A stretch of DNA of 17,954 nucleotides from Verrucomicrobiota bacterium (lineage in GTDB: Bacteria; Verrucomicrobiota; Verrucomicrobiia; Verrucomicrobiales; DEV007): contig JAHDIL010000001.1 in assembly GCA_020630835.1 (NCBI GenBank), forward strand, positions 2,239 through 20,192. Reading direction: 5' to 3'. Every line of letters begins with the position of its first letter. The stretch's first letter is position 1. The position numbers were made by a program, and so were the translations under genes. The notes beneath the pieces were generated by a model that ran no database searches, was not told the origin of the DNA, and saw nothing but the letters and a program-made list of their open reading frames with translations. Below are positions 1,897 through 15,854 of the stretch, piece after piece.

Positions 1897-2955
1897 ATGA
1901 AACGAATCGTTTGTTCTTTGTTCCTTCTAGGGAGCGTTGCCGCAGGCTCCGCCTATTCCCAGCATGTCCGCCCTATCGATATAGGTGCCTCGCCGCAAGC
2001 AGTGGGGGAGGCGGGGGTGGCTTGGTATACCACTTGGGAAACGGCTCTCGCTGAGGCCGAGCGCTCCAATCGCCCTATTTTTTTCATGTCCGCCGCAGCA
2101 ACCTGCAGCGGCATTTCTGGTGTGTTCTGACCGGGCTACACCCGCACGCAGAACAGTTTGTTCTCGTCTCCAGAATTTTTAGAAGCCATCCAGAGCTTTG
2201 TCGCTGTTCGTCTCGAAACCTTCGAGAGCAAGGAGCATGAGAAGCTCATTCGTGAGCTGATGGATGGCCGTTTCGCCAACACAGCCTTCTGCATCCTCGC
2301 GCCAGATGGGGAGGAGCGCCTAACTCGAACCGGCCGCAGCCCAAGCCAGATACTTGGCCCTGACGCTCCAAATCGTGGACGCGGTAATAGTTCGGATGAA
2401 AAAATCGTCGCTCATATGCAGGAAATTGCTGAGGGCTACCAACAACGGGATAGCAATGGAGCGCCCGTCTTGCAGGATTTTCATTCCTTTCGCCAGGCGC
2501 TTAATGTGGCAGCGGGTGATCAGCGCTTACTTCTCTATGCTGTTACCGAACGACACCATGCGGATAAACTACAGAGTCGAATAGGATCTATCTTTAGCTA
2601 TGATAAGCTTGCAGGCATCTTCCACGTGGATCAATCCCAAGGTCAGAATGATGAGGTCTGGAGTAAGAATGTCGAAGGGGCAAGCCCTAGTCCAGGCTAC
2701 TACCTCATCGAGGCAGATGAGTTCGGTCAGGACGGTAAGGTTATCGCCTCATTCCCCCTGAGCACTGAAGCCGATGCTCTCGAGAAAAGTCTGCAGGAAG
2801 CCAACCGAATTTACGGGGAACGGGTCGACCGCAAGGTTTACTCGGAGCATGTCGAAGAAGGCCGCCGTAAAGACGTCTTTTTTGAGAACGAGGTTCCCTA
2901 TGGTGAGGATCGGGATGGCGATGGGGAAATCGATCACCGTCGCGGGCGTGGGTAG
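1897..2955 (+). CDS. Secreted thioredoxin-like protein with an in-frame TGA (selenoprotein candidate)
   Basis: Read through the TGA at 2128-2130, this frame encodes 352 residues. Residues 1-22 are a signal peptide (MKRIVCSLFLLGSVAAGSAYSQ), so the product is exported. Residues about 43-70 (WYTTWETALAEAERSNRPIFFMSAAATC) follow the pattern of thioredoxin_7-type domains: an aromatic start, a helix, an RPI..F strand, then Cys. The usual CxxC is CSGI here (C70), and the TGA is codon 78 in GVF-stop-PGYT. The same frame continues through SSPEFLEAIQSFVAVRLETFESKE, the expected next helix and strand, and carries on for 270 codons. The C-terminus has an acidic DRDGDGEIDHR loop resembling a calcium-binding motif. 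A SECIS-like hairpin follows the TGA. If the TGA is a real stop, the product is a useless 77-mer and the gene is broken. Readthrough as Sec, a nonsense mutation, or a sequence error (TGG to TGA) remain possible. The start at ATG 1897 has AGGGAG at 1878-1883, rather far upstream. Confidence 0.7.
2146..2167 (+). promoter_or_regulatory. SECIS-like bulged hairpin after the in-frame TGA
   Basis: ACG (2146-2148) pairs with CGT (2165-2167). After one bulged C (2149) on the 5' side, AGAACA (2150-2155) pairs perfectly with TGTTCT (2159-2164) around a GTT loop (2156-2158). That is nine base pairs with one 5' bulge. The loop G is 25 nt after the TGA, within the spacing known for bacterial SECIS elements, whose apical loop also begins with G and whose stem in E. 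coli fdhF also carries a 5' bulge. The bulge lies 6 bp below the loop, against 3 bp in fdhF. A second small hairpin, CGGG (2132-2135) with CCCG (2141-2144), lies between. The element is inside coding sequence, so chance pairing is possible. Confidence 0.45.
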
Positions 2956-3004
2956 TGCTCCCCCAAAAAGGTGAAGACTTTTTAGGCTGCACCTTCCGTC
3001 ATCC

Positions 3005-3038
3005 CCTAGAGATGCGATGGTATCCTGGTGTCTCTAGG
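3005..3038 (+). terminator. Hairpin downstream of the thioredoxin-like gene
   Basis: CCTAGAGA (3005-3012) pairs perfectly with TCTCTAGG (3031-3038) across an 18-nt loop. It lies 50 nt after the stop at 2953-2955. A nearer weak stem, AAAAAG (2965-2970) with CTTTTT (2978-2983), ends in T residues that are part of the stem. Either could end transcription ahead of the PVC-type gene. Neither is a textbook intrinsic terminator, because no free T-run follows the stronger stem. The rest of the 237-nt gap (2956-3192) shows no gene and no promoter I would defend. Confidence 0.35.
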
Positions 3039-3192
3039 CGCTTTGTGGGCACTCTAGAGCACTTTTTCGTAACCGTTCTATCCGCAAGCGGGTTGAATCC
3101 GCGATGACGCCGGTGACACGCGGTATTGCAGTTGCTCTATTACGCCAATTTTTGAGGCTACCGTTCGCCTCTCCTCGACTGGATCCACATAC

Positions 3193-6100
3193 ATGAATTG
3201 TCATCGACTTTTTCTTACCGTCTCTTTCCTTGCTGCTGCGATATTCTTTTTCGAGAGTCACACTCTGTATGGGCAGGATGCAGAGAGCGGCAAACCGGCT
3301 GAGCAGAAGTCCTCCTCAGCTGAGGTGGCCGCGAGTGTCAGCCTCGAGAAGCAAGGCAACATTACGCCGATGATTGTTGATCTGACGCCAGAAGAAGAGG
3401 CGAAAATTCTCGAAGGCGTATCTGCTGCCGATGGTTTCGATCTGACGCTGTTTGCGCCCTCGCAAACAGCCAACTATCCTGTTTTCGTGGCTGCTGCCCC
3501 CAATGGCGATCTTTACGTTTCTAGCGACGGCAACGGCTCGCTCGGTCGGGAAGCCAAGCGTGGGCGTGTGCTTCGCCTGCGTGACAAAGACGGTGATGGT
3601 CGTGCCGACGAGGTGACCGAGTTCGTCAAGGAGGTCGATTCGCCACGTGGCCTCATCTGGGATCACGATCGTCTTTACCTGCTGCATCCACCGCACATCT
3701 CGGTTTTCTACGATAAGGATGGCGACGGCGTTGCGGAGGATTCTAAGCGTCTCATCGACAACATAGCCTTTGATTTTTCGGATCGTCCCGCAGACCACAC
3801 GACGAACGACATTGAGCTTGGCATCGATGGCTGGATCTACATCGCGGGAGGCGACTTCGGTTTCGTTAAAGCGACGGGCTCAGATGGCCGTGAGCTTCAG
3901 CATCGTGGGGGAGGGGTTATTCGTTTTCGTCCCGATGGCTCTGGGTTGGAACTCTTCGCCACTGGAACGCGGAACATCCTTGCGGTGCCGACGAGCCCCT
4001 TGCTCGATATTTTTTCTCGGGACAATACCAACGATGGCGGTGGCTGGGATGTGCGTTTCCACCATTTCAGTGGACTGGAGGATCACGGCTATCCACGTCT
4101 CTACAAGAACTTTGCTGACGAGCACGTCCATCCACTGGCTGACTATGGCGGTGGCTCGGGCTGTGGAGCTGTCTACATAGACGAGCCGGGCTTTCCCGAT
4201 GAGTGGAATAGTGGTCCTTTCACCTGTGATTGGGGTAAAGGCGCTCTCTTCCGGCACTCGGTGGAACGCGTTGGGGCTAGTTTCAAAGAGGTGGCCGAAC
4301 CGCAGCCTTTCATCAAGATGAGCCGCCCAACGGACGCCTCTGTAGACGCTATGAGCCGAGTTTACCAGGCGAGCTGGAAGGGAGCGACATTTAAATGGGC
4401 TGGTCCAGATGCGGGCTTCATCGTTGCTGTGCAGCCGAGCGGCTATCAGCCGGAGCCATTGCCTGACTTTGACCAGTTGGGTGACGGCGAATTGGTGGCC
4501 CTGCTCGCTTCCCCTAGTCATATTCGAACCCTGACCGCCCAGCGCACCCTCTTGCGCCGCGAGCTTAAGCCGGAGACCAGTGGCCTGCTCCTCTCGATGG
4601 CCAAGGATGGTGGTCAAGAGCTCTCCACCCGGGTGGCCGCTCTCTATGCCCTTAGCCAGCGAGGCCTCGACAGTGCAGGCGCTGCCGCGGTGGTGGCCAA
4701 GCTTGAGCCTTTGGCTTCGGATTCCTCACTCGCTCCCTTTGTCATGCGTGCCCTCGGTGATATGGCTATCGATCGGATCACGCAAGGGGGTCAAGGGGGG
4801 GCGCCGTCCAAGGTGCTGATCGATGGCATGAAGAGCCCGGATCCCCGCACGCGCCTAGAAGCCATGGTGGCAGCAGCGCGCCAAGGATTGCAGGACACGG
4901 GCGACGCCATCGCGGCCAATCTGGGTCACGAAGATGCGCGCCTAGCTCACACGGCTTTTCAGGCCCTGGGCAAGCTTCAGAATTCGACTGCAGCCATTGC
5001 AGTTCTTTTTTCCCAGGATGCAGGCGCAGCGCAGCGCAAGGGTGCTTCTCACGCCCTCATGCGCATGCACTCTGACGAGGTGGTCGACGAACTCATCGAT
5101 CGATTGAAGACTGAGAAACGCTCGGAAGTGCGCAACTTGCTGCTCGCCACACTTGCCCGATTGCATCACCGCGACGGAGAGTGGGAAGGAGCCAGTTGGG
5201 GAACGCGTCCGGATACGCGTGGGCCCTTTTACCAGCTCGAAACTTGGGATGCGTCTGAGCGCATTCTCATCGCACTTAAGGGAGAATTAGCCAGTGCTGC
5301 CCCCCCTGCAGTCGCAGCACTGGTCTCGGAGATGAATCGGAATCGCATTCGTTCTACTGAGGCTCTTGATCGCATCATCACCATGGCGGCTAAGGACCCT
5401 GCACTAGTTTCGCAAGCGGTAGCTCAGATTGCCGCAGCGGATTCAGTGCCAGGTAAGGCAATTCCCCTGCTTCTTACTGCCGCTCGCCGCTCCGACTCGA
5501 AGCCAGATACCCTGGCACTCGCGGTGAAGTCGCTCGCGACTACCGACGACAAAGAGGCTCTTGCCGCAATGCTCTCGGGCCTAGTTTTGCTAGACAAAAC
5601 GAAGGGCTTTAACAAGGATCAGGAAATTGCCCAAAAGGGCTTTCTCGATGCGCCCAAGCTTGAGAATCACCACCTCGCCCTCGAGAAAATTGCTCGGGAA
5701 AAAGTTGGAAGCGGAGAGGCCCATTGGGCACGAATCGGGCTCCTTGCCCTGGCGACACGGAAGAGTGGTTCACCGGAGTCTCGCGAACTTTCGCAAGATG
5801 CCATCTCTAAGGCTTGGAAGGATCCCAGGCAAAAAATCGCGTTCATGAAGGCTGCCATGCAGGTGAAGAACCGCTATCTCGACGAACGCATTCTTATTGC
5901 GGCGAAGGATCCGAGTCCAGAGGTCGCCAAGATGGCCGCTCAGGCTATGGGGCGACTGAAGATTAAACCCAAGGGCGAGGACAATACGCCCAAGTTGGGA
6001 ACGCTTTCTCCCGAGGAGCAGCTTGCGACAATCATCAAGGCCAAGGGTGATATCGCTCTTGGGGAAGCGGTCTTCGAGCGCGCTAATTGCGTGGCCTGCC

Positions 6101-6656: not shown

Positions 6657-8906
<2,250 letters not shown>

Positions 8907-11349: not shown

Positions 11350-11427
11350 GCTTATTGCTGCCGCGGTGGTAGCTAGTGCAATTGAGGGGTTGCGATTTCT
11401 CTGCTCGCTACGTAGTTGGTAGAGAAT

Positions 11428-12147
11428 ATGAGCGCCGCCGTGTGGACATCATGTGTCGCCTGCGATAATGGGCAGGCAGATTTCTTTTACTCTTTCTGCG
11501 AGCAGGGAGTGGAAAAGAAATTCCCTTTGTGTCGAAGCTGTGCTGAGGCCTTTGGAGCTTATGACGAGACGGCGTATGATCTGCGTCAAAAGTTGGAAGC
11601 AGCGGGCGTATCACCACTCTCTGAGCCGATTACTATGAAAGATGAGTCGTCCTGTCCCTCCTGCGGTTTCACCCAGAGCGATTTTAAGAGAACGGGCCGC
11701 TTTGGGTGTGCCCACTGCTATGGCGTTTTTGATGAGGGTTTGGAGTCTCTCCTCGATGCGATGCACGGCCATACGGAGCACACTGGTAAGTCACCGCAGA
11801 GTTTCGACTCTGGGCTATCATCACAAGCTCCTGTGGCGCCACCAGAGGGTGTTCGAGAGCTCGAACTCTTCGAGGATCTTCCACAAGAAGAGCTTGAGAG
11901 TCTTGTGATGGGAGAAGAGTTGGCAGGTTTGATCGAAGAGGTGACTGAAGAAGCCGGCGAGGTCGCTCCGTCACAGGAGGGTGGGATTGATGAAGATCTA
12001 CTTTTTGACCCAGACCTAGTCGAGGAAGACTCTCCGGAAACGATTGCCGAGCTCAGTCTTGAGGAGCAGTTGAATAAAGCCATCCTGGAGGAGCGCTATG
12101 AAGATGCGGCGAAATTGCGTGATCTGATCGATAATGAAACTGACTGA
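11428..12147 (+). CDS. mcsA: McsA-like zinc-finger and UVR-motif protein
   Basis: This 239-residue cytoplasmic protein is the likely activator of the arginine kinase McsB encoded next. Four CxxC pairs are visible: C9/C12, C35/C38, C76/C79 and C94/C97, the McsA zinc-binding pattern. A UVR motif closes the protein at about 210-235 (LSLEEQLNKAILEERYEDAAKLRDLID). McsA of Firmicutes is about 180 residues; the excess is an acidic, probably disordered linker at about 115-208, rich in Glu and Asp, between fingers and UVR. The start at ATG 11428 (MSAAVWTSC) is preferred over TTG 11416, four codons upstream. mcsB starts 79 nt downstream. Position and motif set make the assignment firm, although the linker is unlike the reference proteins. 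Confidence 0.85.
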   Translation: MSAAVWTSCVACDNGQADFFYSFCEQGVEKKFPLCRSCAEAFGAYDETAYDLRQKLEAAGVSPLSEPITMKDESSCPSCGFTQSDFKRTGRFGCAHCYGVFDEGLESLLDAMHGHTEHTGKSPQSFDSGLSSQAPVAPPEGVRELELFEDLPQEELESLVMGEELAGLIEEVTEEAGEVAPSQEGGIDEDLLFDPDLVEEDSPETIAELSLEEQLNKAILEERYEDAAKLRDLIDNETD

Positions 12148-12209
12148 GCCCTTTGCTATGCTATAGGATTGAGAGAGCGGTTTGGCCCTCTTTCTGCTGC
12201 TTCTTTACC

Positions 12210-12214
12210 GGAGG
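12210..12214 (+). promoter_or_regulatory. Shine-Dalgarno site deciding the mcsB start
   Basis: GGAGG lies 12 nt before ATG 12227 and 15 nt before ATG 12230. It lies inside the longer frame that opens at TTG 12182, so that upstream start, which would add a hydrophobic 15-residue leader, is unlikely for a cytoplasmic kinase. Confidence 0.6.
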
Positions 12215-12226
12215 TCTCTTTGCCCC

Positions 12227-13339
12227 ATGATGCGTTTTTCTACCCTTCACAACAAGCAACCCGAATGGATGCGAAGTTCCGGGCCTCAGAGCGAAATCGT
12301 CATCACGAGTCGTGTTCGGCTGGCTAGGAATTTGGCACATCATGCTTTTCCGGGTTGGGCGGAACCACGAGAAAGGGAAGAGGTCATGGATACGATACTG
12401 CCTGCACTCGAGCAGCTAGGCGAGATGAAAGAAGCTTTTTCATCCGACATGAAAGACCTGAGCCCTATCGAAAAGCAGGTCCTCGTTGAGAGGCACCTGA
12501 TCAGCCGAGAGCATGCGGCGAAGAGTTCGGGCAGTGCCTCTGTCATGAATCGCCCTCAGACCATCAGTATCATGGTCAACGAGGAGGATCATTTGCGGCT
12601 TCAATCCGTGCGTCCCGGCCTGCAGCTTCATTCGGCTTATAGCGCGTTATCGGATTTGGACACTGAGTTGGAAGACTCCGTCACATATGCCTTTGATGCA
12701 AAGTATGGCTATCTCACCGCATGCCCGACGAATTTAGGGACCGGAATGCGTGCCTCCGCGATGCTTCATCTGCCTGGGCTCGTATTAAGTGATCAAATCA
12801 ATCAGACGATCCAGGGGGCGAATAAAATTGGTTTGGCTGTGCGCGGTCTCTATGGCGAAGGGTCAGAGGCTCTGGCTAATCTCTTTCAGATATCGAATCA
12901 GACGACGTTGGGGCAGGCGGAAGACGAGATCATCTCCCAGTTGGACCGGGTCATCCTCCAACTCATCGAGAATGAGAAGAATGCGCGCTACAAGTTGCTA
13001 GAAGACCACAAGAGTATGGTCCAAGATCAAGTGGGTCGGGCCTACGCTATCTTAAAATACGCTCACATCATTTCCTCCAAGGAGGCGCTGAACTGCATTT
13101 CCATGATCCGCTTCGGCTGTGATTTGGGGGTGTTCGCTGATGAAGAAAAGGAATCTATTAATGTGTTGCTGACAAGAATTCAGCCAGCGCACTTACAAAT
13201 GGCTGCTAAGCGTAAACTATCTTCAGAAGAACGTGATTGTTTGCGTGCTGAGATCATTCAGTCGTCATTATTTCAACTGACGCCGCCCGATTTCAGCGAT
13301 ATATTAAATTTAGGAAAGGAGAACCGAGAAGATGAATAA
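12227..13339 (+). CDS. mcsB: Protein arginine kinase McsB
   Basis: This 370-residue kinase of the phosphagen-kinase fold phosphorylates arginines on misfolded or regulatory proteins, marking them for ClpCP. Motifs: SRVRLARN (28-35, ATP phosphate contacts), NEEDHLRLQSVRPG (118-131, with the catalytic acidic residues), TACPTNLGTGMRAS (165-177, catalytic-loop C166), and RGLYGEG (206-212). An RDxxRA element, RDCLRA at 336-341, matches the allosteric phosphoarginine-binding motif that separates McsB from creatine and arginine kinases. The length is close to the roughly 360 residues of Bacillus McsB. The start ATG 12227 follows GGAGG at 12210-12214; an ATG directly after it at 12230 is equally possible. 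The last 8 nt overlap clpC, so the two are almost surely translationally coupled. Confidence 0.95.
   Translation: MMRFSTLHNKQPEWMRSSGPQSEIVITSRVRLARNLAHHAFPGWAEPREREEVMDTILPALEQLGEMKEAFSSDMKDLSPIEKQVLVERHLISREHAAKSSGSASVMNRPQTISIMVNEEDHLRLQSVRPGLQLHSAYSALSDLDTELEDSVTYAFDAKYGYLTACPTNLGTGMRASAMLHLPGLVLSDQINQTIQGANKIGLAVRGLYGEGSEALANLFQISNQTTLGQAEDEIISQLDRVILQLIENEKNARYKLLEDHKSMVQDQVGRAYAILKYAHIISSKEALNCISMIRFGCDLGVFADEEKESINVLLTRIQPAHLQMAAKRKLSSEERDCLRAEIIQSSLFQLTPPDFSDILNLGKENREDE
13315..13321 (+). promoter_or_regulatory. clpC ribosome binding site inside mcsB
   Basis: AAAGGAG sits 10 nt before the clpC ATG at 13332 and within the last codons of mcsB. It is one of the best Shine-Dalgarno matches in the window. 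It supports the 13332 start and independent initiation on clpC in addition to coupling. Confidence 0.6.
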
Positions 13340-15854
13340 TTTTACCCCGAGAGCACAACAGGTTTTGGCCTTGGCCCGCAAGGAGGCCGATCGATTTAAT
13401 CACAACTACGTGGGCACGGAGCACCTGCTTCTAGGCCTTATCAAGTTGGGGCAAGGAGTCGCTGTCAATGTTCTGCAGAAGATGAGCCTCGATTTGGAAA
13501 CCGTCCGAATGGAGGTCGAAAAGCAGGTCGGGAATGGGCCAGAGACCAAGATGGTTGGAAACATACCATACACTCCGCGCGTGAAAAAAGTGCTCGCCCT
13601 TGCCGGACGTGAGGCAAAGGCGCTCAATCACAGCTATGTAGGCACAGAGCATATCTTGCTAGGGCTACTTCGGGAGGGAGATGGAGTAGCAGCCCGCGTG
13701 CTCAAGAACCTCGACGTTGATATCGAAAACACCCGCACCGAAATTTTGCGTGAGCTGGACCCGAACTTTACGGGTGGTGAGGGAGATGAGGAAGAAGTGG
13801 GTGACTTTGAGGAAGCTTCTGCTGGTTCAGGAAACCGCAAGGAGGGTAAGACTCCTGCGCTTAAGGCCTTTGGACGGGACCTTACTGAGTTGGCTAACGA
13901 GGGAGACTTAGACCCAGTGATTGGACGCGCGGAAGAAATCGAACGCGTTATCCAGATTCTTTGTCGGCGCACGAAGAACAATCCTGTTCTCATTGGGGAG
14001 GCGGGAGTCGGCAAAACGGCCATCGCGGAGGGGTTGGCGCAAGAGATTGGTATGGGTAATGTCCCAGAAATTTTGCGGGACAAGCGCGTCATTACCTTGG
14101 ATCTCGCTCTGATGGTTGCTGGCACAAAATACCGTGGACAATTCGAGGAGCGCATTAAGGCGGTGATGGATGAAATCAAAAAGGCTAAGAATGTCATTCT
14201 GTTTATTGATGAGCTGCACACTATTGTCGGAGCTGGGTCTGCGGAAGGCGCCATGGATGCATCTAACATCATCAAACCTGCCCTTAGTCGAGGTGAGCTG
14301 CAGTGTATCGGTGCGACCACGATGAACGAATATCGCAAGTTTATCGAAAAAGATGCTGCCCTCGAGCGCCGTTTTCAGCAGGTTAAAGTGGAAGAGCCCT
14401 CGGTCGAAGACGCCATACTTATCCTTCAGGGACTTCAGTCAAAATACGAAGCCCACCACAAGGTGACTTATGCAGAAGAAGCCATTGAGGCTTGTGTGAA
14501 ACTTTCCTCGCGCTACCTGACAGGACGTTTTCTGCCAGACAAGGCGATCGACATACTTGATGAAGCAGGCGCCCGTGCGCGCATTGCATCGATGACTCGT
14601 CCTCGCAGTATCAAAGATCTAGAGGATGAGATCGAAGATATTGTCGCCGAAAAAGAGGCGGCCATTAAAGATCAGGACTTTGAGAACGCCGCCGCTCTCC
14701 GCGATCAGGAGAAAACGAAGCGTCAGGAGATGGAAGAAAAACTGGAGACCTGGAAGGCATCCAGCGAGGAGACTATCGTAGACATCGTCGATGACGATAT
14801 CATGTCTGTCGTTGCTAAGTGGACCGGGGTCCCGCTCCAGCGAATGGAGGAAAAAGAGGCGGAGAAGTTGCTCAAGATGGAGGACGAACTTAAAAGCCGC
14901 GTCATTGGTCAGGATGAAGCCGTTACCGCCATTTCAAAAGCTTTGCGTCGCTCTCGTGCTGATTTGAAGGATCCTCGTCGCCCAATCGGATCGTTTATCT
15001 TCCTAGGGCCCACCGGAGTGGGTAAGACCTATCTAGCTCGCAATCTTGCTGAGTTCATGTTTGGTGATCGCGAGGCGCTCATCCAGATCGACATGTCGGA
15101 ATACATGGAGAAGTTCACGAGCAGTCGTTTGATAGGATCTCCTCCAGGATATGTCGGATATGAGGAGGGCGGCCAGCTTTCGGAGGCAGTTCGCCGCCGT
15201 CCCTACTCCGTCGTTCTTTTCGATGAGATTGAGAAAGCCCACCCGGATGTGATGAATCTTATGCTTCAAGTTCTTGAGGAGGGGATGATCACGGACAGCC
15301 TCGGCCGAAAGATCGACTTCCGGAACACCATTATTATTCTCACCTCGAATGTGGGTGCTGAGTTGATCAAAAAGCAGATTACGGTTGGCTTTGGATCAAT
15401 GGGCAAAGGCGAGGATGGTGACTACGACAACATGCGGGAGAAGATTCTTGATCGCGCAAAAGAAGTCTTCAAACCAGAGTTTCTCAATCGACTAGATGGC
15501 CAGATTGTTTTCCATGTTCTTGAGAAAGAAAACCTTATTAAGATCGTCGAGTTGGAAATTACGGCTGTTTTGGAGCGCCTTGCTGAGAAGAACATTCATC
15601 TTAAGCTTGATAAGAAGGCGAAGGAATTCCTCATCGAAAAGGGTTACGACCCTGATTATGGCGCTCGCCCTATGAGGCGTGCCGTCGAACAACATATGGA
15701 AGATCCTCTAGCAGAAATGCTTCTACGCAACGAGGTGGGCGAGGGGATGCTTGTCAAAGTGACTCACCACAAAGGGGGTGAGCAGCTTATCTTTCGTCCA
15801 GAGGACGTTGATACCGATGAAACTCCAGAAAAAGTTGGCTCCGTTGAGGGCTAG
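13332..15854 (+). CDS. clpC: ATP-dependent Clp protease ATP-binding subunit ClpC
   Basis: This 840-residue Hsp100 AAA+ unfoldase feeds substrates to the ClpP peptidase. It has two N-domain repeats ([16 protein letters not shown] near 5-20 and [16 protein letters not shown] near 81-96, each followed by [12 protein letters not shown] or [12 protein letters not shown]). The first AAA+ module has Walker A GEAGVGKT (222-229) and Walker B VILFIDE (288-294). A UVR-type middle region follows ([22 protein letters not shown]). The second AAA+ module has Walker A GPTGVGKT (559-566), the [19 protein letters not shown] pore segment and the C-terminal [14 protein letters not shown] motif. N repeats plus a UVR middle domain identify ClpC and exclude ClpB or ClpA. 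It is last in the mcsA-mcsB-clpC cluster and is followed by a hairpin plus T-run. No ctsR lies upstream. Confidence 0.97.

Follow-up and report, generated by a model that had tools for sequence, protein, structure and literature searches.

The gene and its in-frame TGA

The DNA considered here, referred to as the window, is the whole 17,954-nucleotide stretch of contig JAHDIL010000001.1 from a Verrucomicrobiota bacterium (assembly GCA_020630835.1), and the subject of the analysis is a putative selenoprotein gene at positions 1897-2955, which lies, like the features described within it below, on the plus strand. The gene is a single reading frame in which 77 codons are followed by a TGA at 2128-2130, by 274 further sense codons and by a TAG terminator at 2953-2955. 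Read through the TGA, it specifies a protein of 352 residues with a predicted selenocysteine (Sec) at residue 78, and its homologues align with it over their full length. The frame, the position of the TGA and the codon counts had been given earlier in a reading made from the letters alone (the sequence-only reading), and they were obtained again when the frame was re-read. An open reading frame (ORF) starting with TTG begins downstream of the TGA, at 2158. TGA is also the terminator in five of the 12 window genes looked at.

Conservation of the TGA across the family

The gene is present in 28 of the 95 genomes searched, a set made up of the genome of the window, which is counted, and its relatives. 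A scan of a genome collection covering 84,980 species, with query peptides that excluded the Sec column, produced 14 loci in records titled Roseibacillus, Akkermansiaceae, Verrucomicrobia, Mariniblastus and Pirellulaceae. Among 387 genomes of the phylum to which the window's assembly belongs, four were matched, namely the genome itself, two more genomes bearing the gene and one with a weak match to an ordinary CxxC protein. Of 392 genomes from the phylum that includes the Mariniblastus genome G464, 62 gave a match, which was strong in 52. The latter scan revealed a second subfamily, homologous to subfamily 1 over nearly the entire length, in which the residue preceding the TGA is mostly Trp and the residues following it are PG plus K, Y or F. 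The family spans two phyla, Verrucomicrobiota and Planctomycetota.

The Sec column can be examined in 98 genes, including that of the window, although some of these loci are near-identical. Before counting, L036 (from the genome of L007), L006 and L084 (the window itself) and L099 (a copy of L049) were dropped, as were L034, L035 and L163, which do not cover the Sec column. Fragments without the column in G656 and G723 and weak rows from G631, G697, G736 and G791 in the G464-phylum scan were not counted; L087, a weak match in G192, was used as an outgroup instead of being counted as a member, and L155-L162 (at most 32 bits) were placed outside the family. L112 and L126, which had been missed by a regular expression, were recovered by a profile.

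The codon at column 78 is TGA in all 98 genes, and neither a Cys codon nor a Trp codon occurs there. The sequence-only reading had proposed that homologues be inspected at this residue, where Trp would point to mutation or error, and the outcome favours Sec. A base-calling error at the TGA is untenable given the 98 loci that carry it. Among the genomes searched no Cys form was found inside the family, and Cys occurs at the column only in remote thioredoxin-like relatives; Cys in the place of Sec in some homologues is common among bacterial selenoproteins without being a requirement. The terminators of the same genes are TGA in 40, TAG in 29 and TAA in 26, the remaining three genes being cut off before their ends. 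TGA also terminates 40 of the 95 genes whose ends are visible, so that it does not serve as a sense codon generally; it would be read as Sec inside the gene and as a stop at its end.

The coding sequence is under purifying selection on both flanks of the TGA, with a ratio of nonsynonymous to synonymous substitution (dN/dS) of about 0.03 upstream and 0.05 downstream, values that come from a single pair, the window gene and its 82%-identical relative, in which dS is near saturation. The codon that precedes the TGA (2125-2127 in the window) is TTC in 35 of 36 subfamily-1 genes, which raises the possibility of a context effect on UGA decoding.

The hairpin downstream of the TGA

A hairpin of nine pairs with one 5' bulge, identified as a candidate bacterial selenocysteine insertion sequence (bSECIS) by fold prediction, covariation and synonymous constraint, occupies 2146-2167, and its five-pair core stem with the loop GUU (2156-2158) occupies 2151-2163. 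In the window 25 bases separate the TGA from the loop G, which is base 26 after it. All the elements that the sequence-only reading had described, that is, the nine pairs, the 5' bulge and the loop starting with G at a spacing of 25 nucleotides, were reproduced by folding.

Comparison among the genes takes the hairpin far beyond what chance would give. A four-pair core with the loop G, held in fixed register, was found in 68 of 70 genes and in five of 1399 control windows taken from the same genes; of 28 genes added afterwards, 23 retain the core. Altogether 91 of the 98 genes keep the four-pair core in register, and the loop G is at its place in 92. In alignment A2, which has 69 sequences and from which L100 was left out owing to a register shift, 97.4% of the cells of the five-pair core are paired, compared to 39-60% when the core is slid along the alignment, and the full nine pairs are paired in 78.9%. 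The core contains 72 double-change cells, compared to 22.9 in shuffles; the counts of double-change pairs and of pair types in A2 are not above those of shuffles (231 and 63 of 500 shuffles, respectively, reach them). Loop positions 1 and 2 (G29 and U30) are invariant in all 69 rows.

A second signature is provided by synonymous sites. In 36 aligned subfamily-1 genes codons 84-89, which usually read ACG CAG AAC AGT TTG TTC, are almost frozen synonymously: codon identity there exceeds pooled usage by 0.56 on average, compared to 0.026 elsewhere in the genes. The stem letters of subfamily 2 are different, as in GGACAGGA-GUU-UCCUGUCC, while the position and the loop are unchanged; as judged from these sequences, the stem is diverging between the subfamilies via compensatory substitutions. 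Two subfamilies with unrelated stems but the same loop and spacing constitute a natural experiment on recognition by SelB.

In the available part of a 2026 review, the bSECIS model is that of a hairpin within the coding sequence, with its loop 16-37 nucleotides after the TGA and a G among the first two loop bases (PMC13188914). With the energy limit left out, this geometry is found in 94 of the 98 genes, including that of the window (spacing 25, loop GUU).

Selenocysteine machinery

The sequence-only reading had suggested a search of the genome for the selenocysteine genes. Although the window's own assembly is 52% complete, both protein-coding genes searched for are present in it above the curated cut-offs, selB at C145 (300.8 bits) and selA at C158 (482.7 bits). 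No Sec-tRNA above the cut-off was found in the 52%-complete assembly, the five best candidates being ordinary tRNAs according to ARAGORN, but the nearest relative, G016, whose version of the protein is 82% identical, has selA, selB and a tRNA-SeC.

The association of the gene with selA holds across the genomes sampled. In the set of 95 genomes a selA match is present in 28 of 28 bearers and in 20 of 67 non-bearers (Fisher p 2.6e-11); these matches exceed the cut-off in 27 of the bearers (that of G055 being a contig-edge fragment) and in 19 of the 20 non-bearers that have one. In the phylum of G464 the comparison was made on 80 chosen genomes, consisting of all 52 strong bearers and 28 non-bearers, with the weak partial matches in G530 and G680 uncounted and G750 counted from an end fragment, and selA was found in 50 of the 52 bearers and in 17 of the 28 non-bearers (p 9.5e-5). 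All seven genomes reached via the collection loci have selA. When 39 candidates per genome were scored, 21 of the 28 bearers showed a tRNA-Sec of at least 55 bits, and ARAGORN reports a tRNA-SeC in each of the five relatives' loci tested.

Proposed active site and protein architecture

The predicted Sec lies in a thioredoxin-like domain (2002-2346, approximately residues 36-150) that was recognized with Pfam Thioredoxin_7 (PF13899) and with hhalign. All 36 members scanned match the Pfam model at E of at most 1, with a best value of 3.5e-4; the match of the window protein itself, over residues 42-71, is weak (15.1 bits compared to a gathering score of 27). Against a profile of nine sequences comprising VPGU-like, Trx7/PDZ-like and CxxC proteins, hhalign gives 98.4% over the thioredoxin domain and aligns U78 with the first Cys/Sec of the motif and Y81 with the second. 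According to this alignment Sec78 is at the N-terminal catalytic position of the ancestral CxxC, and the resolving Cys at +3 is lost; position +3 is Tyr in 55 of the 98 genes, Lys in 42, Phe in one and Cys in none. The sequence-only reading had raised the C-x7-U spacing as an objection to Sec, on the grounds that it is not a standard pair. The spacing is as it described, and the point to be refined is that Sec78 takes the first position of the motif and is not an odd additional site.

A candidate for the resolving thiol is Cys70 (codon 2104-2106), eight residues ahead of the Sec. Cys is found at this position in 96 of the 98 genes, and in 50 aligned proteins C70 and U78 are the only invariant redox residues; C103 is nearly invariant in the same alignment and is replaced by Ala in the window protein. 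The sequence-only reading had paired Cys70 with Sec78, a candidate pairing that is strengthened by the conservation of the Cys. By eye, T129 apparently occupies what we take to be the place of the thioredoxin cis-Pro, a substitution that would fit unusual chemistry.

The N-terminus (1897-1959) is hydrophobic and probably a signal peptide, the end of which was set by eye. The protein is probably exported, because a strongly hydrophobic, signal-peptide-like N-terminal stretch is present in 30 of 36 members. In L027, L030 and L031 there is instead an N-terminal segment that resembles an EF-hand by eye and no visible signal peptide, and the starts chosen for these genes may be wrong. A C-terminal domain (2449-2871, approximately residues 185-325) is conserved in alignments A1 and A3. 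No known family was found for the C-terminal half, and sequence searches of the PDB returned nothing significant, with best E values of 0.41 and, for profile positions 40-72, 0.062 (3ira). Near the C-terminus the sequence DRDGDGEID (2908-2934) resembles a calcium-binding loop; EF-hand models match weakly in two to four of 36 members.

Interpretation and alternative explanations

The explanation that best accounts for these observations as a whole is that the product of this gene is an exported selenoprotein with a thioredoxin fold and that the UGA at 2128-2130 is decoded as Sec via a bSECIS, and we hold this to be very probable; that residue 78 in particular is Sec is, on the comparative evidence, nearly certain. 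The Sec78 proposed by the sequence-only reading is supported by the uniform TGA column, the covariation of the hairpin, the presence of selA and selB and the co-occurrence of the gene with selA. In the mechanism that we propose, SelB and Sec-tRNA would read the UGA as Sec under the guidance of the hairpin at 2146-2167, as the comparative data indicate. Sec78 would take the N-terminal catalytic site of the ancestral CxxC, the +3 Cys having been replaced, as the alignment shows, by an aromatic residue or Lys. In the chemistry that we propose, the selenolate might then attack an extracytoplasmic substrate such as a disulfide or a peroxide, and the resulting selenenyl intermediate might be resolved either by an external thiol or by Cys70, which lies in an inserted loop. 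That the protein performs thiol-type redox catalysis is likely, while the chances that Cys70 is its internal resolving partner are evenly balanced.

Several observations weigh against this explanation or limit the evidence for it. As a single sequence the hairpin of the window is unremarkable (z = -1.34), with 20 of 200 shuffles folding equally well or better, and since its fold is ordinary in this respect the hairpin of the window alone proves nothing. The fixed-register core is absent from seven of the 98 genes, and in L142, L132, L137 and L151 no hairpin resembling the model is seen at all. The published bSECIS geometry is also found in 666 of the 1399 control windows, and it has been given little weight because it is so permissive. 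In the G464 phylum selA was not seen in the gene-bearers G552 and G802, and the tRNA-Sec score is below 55 bits in seven of the 28 gene-bearing genomes, namely the window's own and six others that include G004, G026 and G041, which are 95-96% complete. L147 and L148 have no Cys at the position of Cys70. Finally, L155 (G514 C38:100899-101759, 32 bits), a weakly matching thioredoxin-like frame outside the family, has TGC at the Sec column and a TGA four codons before it.

The alternative that survives best accepts the insertion of Sec but assigns to it a role in metal or selenium binding, or in export or assembly, instead of thiol redox chemistry. The absence of a +3 Cys from all 98 genes, the Thr seen by eye in place of the cis-Pro and the calcium-loop-like tail are compatible with such a role, but the position of the Sec at the catalytic thioredoxin position and the Cys at -8 in 96 genes argue for redox catalysis, and we regard a non-redox role as unlikely.

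A further alternative is that the protein is no more than a divergent VPGUxxT or Trx7/PDZ selenoprotein, both of these being known families. A scan of 46 members against NCBIfam returned weak matches only, to NF041382 (best E 4e-4), NF041199 (best E 0.0035) and NF045694, and the first two of these, together with the hhalign result over the thioredoxin domain, count in its favour. When 16 members were scanned singly, however, none scored above 18.5 bits, which is far below all of the cut-offs (350 for NF041382, 275 for NF041383 and 300 for NF041199); the VPGU motif and the +3 Cys are absent, a loop is inserted, and the match is confined to the N-terminal part. We consider this explanation improbable.

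If the TGA were an ordinary stop, as translation table 11 would have it, the locus would be a pseudogene or two genes, yielding only a 77-residue product or one re-initiated downstream, for which the TTG-started ORF from 2158 might serve; the occurrence of TGA in all 98 genes, the conservation of the residues that follow it, the purifying selection on both sides and the frozen hairpin make this very improbable. The reading of TGA as Trp, or its near-cognate suppression, is the least probable of all despite the single change that separates TGG from TGA and the Trp that precedes the TGA in most of subfamily 2, given that no TGG occurs in the 98 genes, that TGA serves as an ordinary terminator both in members of the family and in the window, that the gene is associated with selA, that the hairpin covaries and that the column aligns with the Cys or Sec of relatives. 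Trp recoding and a pseudogene were accordingly rejected on the conservation of the TGA, the TGA terminators and the covariation of the hairpin.

A broader proposal can be built on the selenoprotein explanation: the family would be an obligately Sec-only, exported thioredoxin-fold family in two phyla, with a chemistry that depends on Sec because the +3 Cys has been lost and UxxY/K is paired with a Cys at -8; it would have spread by horizontal transfer along with its SECIS and would be invisible to searches based on Cys/Sec pairs. We see the arguments for and against this full combination as about equal. Such a large family, for which the genomes searched yielded no Cys form, offers a direct test of chemistry that may need selenium. 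Gene calling with table 11 would split such genes at the TGA, which creates an annotation blind spot.

Distribution and genomic context

In a maximum likelihood tree of 50 members, rooted at the midpoint, the four subfamily-1 proteins of Pirellulaceae form one clade (100/99) nested within Verrucomicrobiota; because of this nesting, the tree suggests transfer of the gene between phyla. L102, a planctomycete sequence first assigned to subfamily 2, falls on the subfamily-1 side of the tree on a long branch. The Mariniblastus genome G464 carries copies of both subfamilies, and in its locus L134 (C11:1-9500) about 3 kb separate the subfamily-2 gene (2967-3842) from selA (7009-8367). Another subfamily-2 copy, L154 (G522 C33:18566-20196), is apparently split by a frameshift near residue 90.

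No conserved neighbourhood was detected: Fur-like and ManA-like neighbours recur solely in L007 and L036, which are records of the nearest relative, and three downstream genes of the window recur in none of the family loci, most of which have about 1.5 kb of flank and at most 4 kb. Elsewhere in the window, 11416-15854 contains three consecutive genes that we take to resemble McsA, McsB and ClpC.

Comparison with known selenoprotein families

As far as the genomes and the literature searched go, this seems to be a new family and a Sec-only one. Among the 119 selenoprotein families listed in the available part of the 2026 review, no row fits it by motif and domain together, the nearest letters being UPGQ (PMC13188914). 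In the parts of the literature that were available no family was recognised as the same, the S9 Table of PMC4807772 (planctomycete candidates), Haft and Tolstoy 2025 and public database annotations lying outside this comparison. The available text of the deep-Sep paper states that the method may miss selenoproteins without Cys homologues (PMC12013277), and the Global Ocean Sampling (GOS) selenoproteome work, as far as its available text goes, also relies on Cys homologues (PMC2398784). Earlier searches for Cys/Sec pairs may have missed the family because, to judge by the genomes searched, it lacks a Cys form.

The letters U-P-G recur in PrdC form 2 (TIGR04481), for which UPGQ is given in Table 1 of the available part of PMC13188914. 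This family, by its name a proline reductase electron transfer protein and so of a different kind, was not reported in the NCBIfam scans of 46 members.

A closer likeness is found in the VPGUxxT proteins of types 1 and 2 (NF041382 and NF041383; OS_HP5), which resemble the family in having a thioredoxin-like domain, a hydrophobic start and the Sec in the same column. Some of the same genomes also contain relatives, with Sec or Cys, that match the VPGUxxT model below its cut-off. These proteins are unlike the present family in that VPGU or VPGC is combined with a +3 Cys in the seven copies read, which include the Cys forms L089, L090 and L092. The inserted loop with its Cys is found in the present family and not in VPGUxxT, and nothing in the present proteins matches VPGUxxT beyond the thioredoxin part. 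Copies of the VPGU/VPGC protein from the same group of genomes alternate between Sec (L088, L091, L093 and L094) and Cys (L089, L090 and L092) at a single column, and in each of the four Sec copies a hairpin with a GGUC loop folds after the TGA.

The Trx7/PDZ family (NF041199) shares a Trx7-like N-terminal domain with the Sec in the aligned column (L096 and L097). It differs in its CIPUxAC motif with a +3 Cys and, according to the family name, in a PDZ domain; the present proteins score 10-16 bits against its cut-off of 300, and over the N-terminal part only. L096, L097 and L161, which have CIPUxAC or CVPUKDC motifs, resemble Sec copies of this family by motif.

Three unnamed Trx7-like frames from the G464-phylum scan, L159 (UPGC), L156 (UPPC) and L160 (UPAC), also have Sec in the same column, and L159 shares U-P-G with the present family. 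They are unlike it in that the +3 Cys is kept, the frames are shorter and the scores against the A3 profile are 28-31 bits. In each of the three the TGA is followed by a predicted hairpin, and they are possibly further undescribed selenoproteins. Taken with CPKC (L158), VPGU (L088) and VPGC (L089), the motifs of these frames at the column (for L156, L158 and L159 the profile has a gap there and the match was made by eye) may, in our reading, represent possible steps in which Cys was replaced by Sec, the resolving Cys was then lost and a new Cys was gained in the inserted loop. In these terms the present family differs from Pfam Thioredoxin_7 itself in its motif, which is CxxC in the latter and UxxY, UxxK or UxxF in the family described here.
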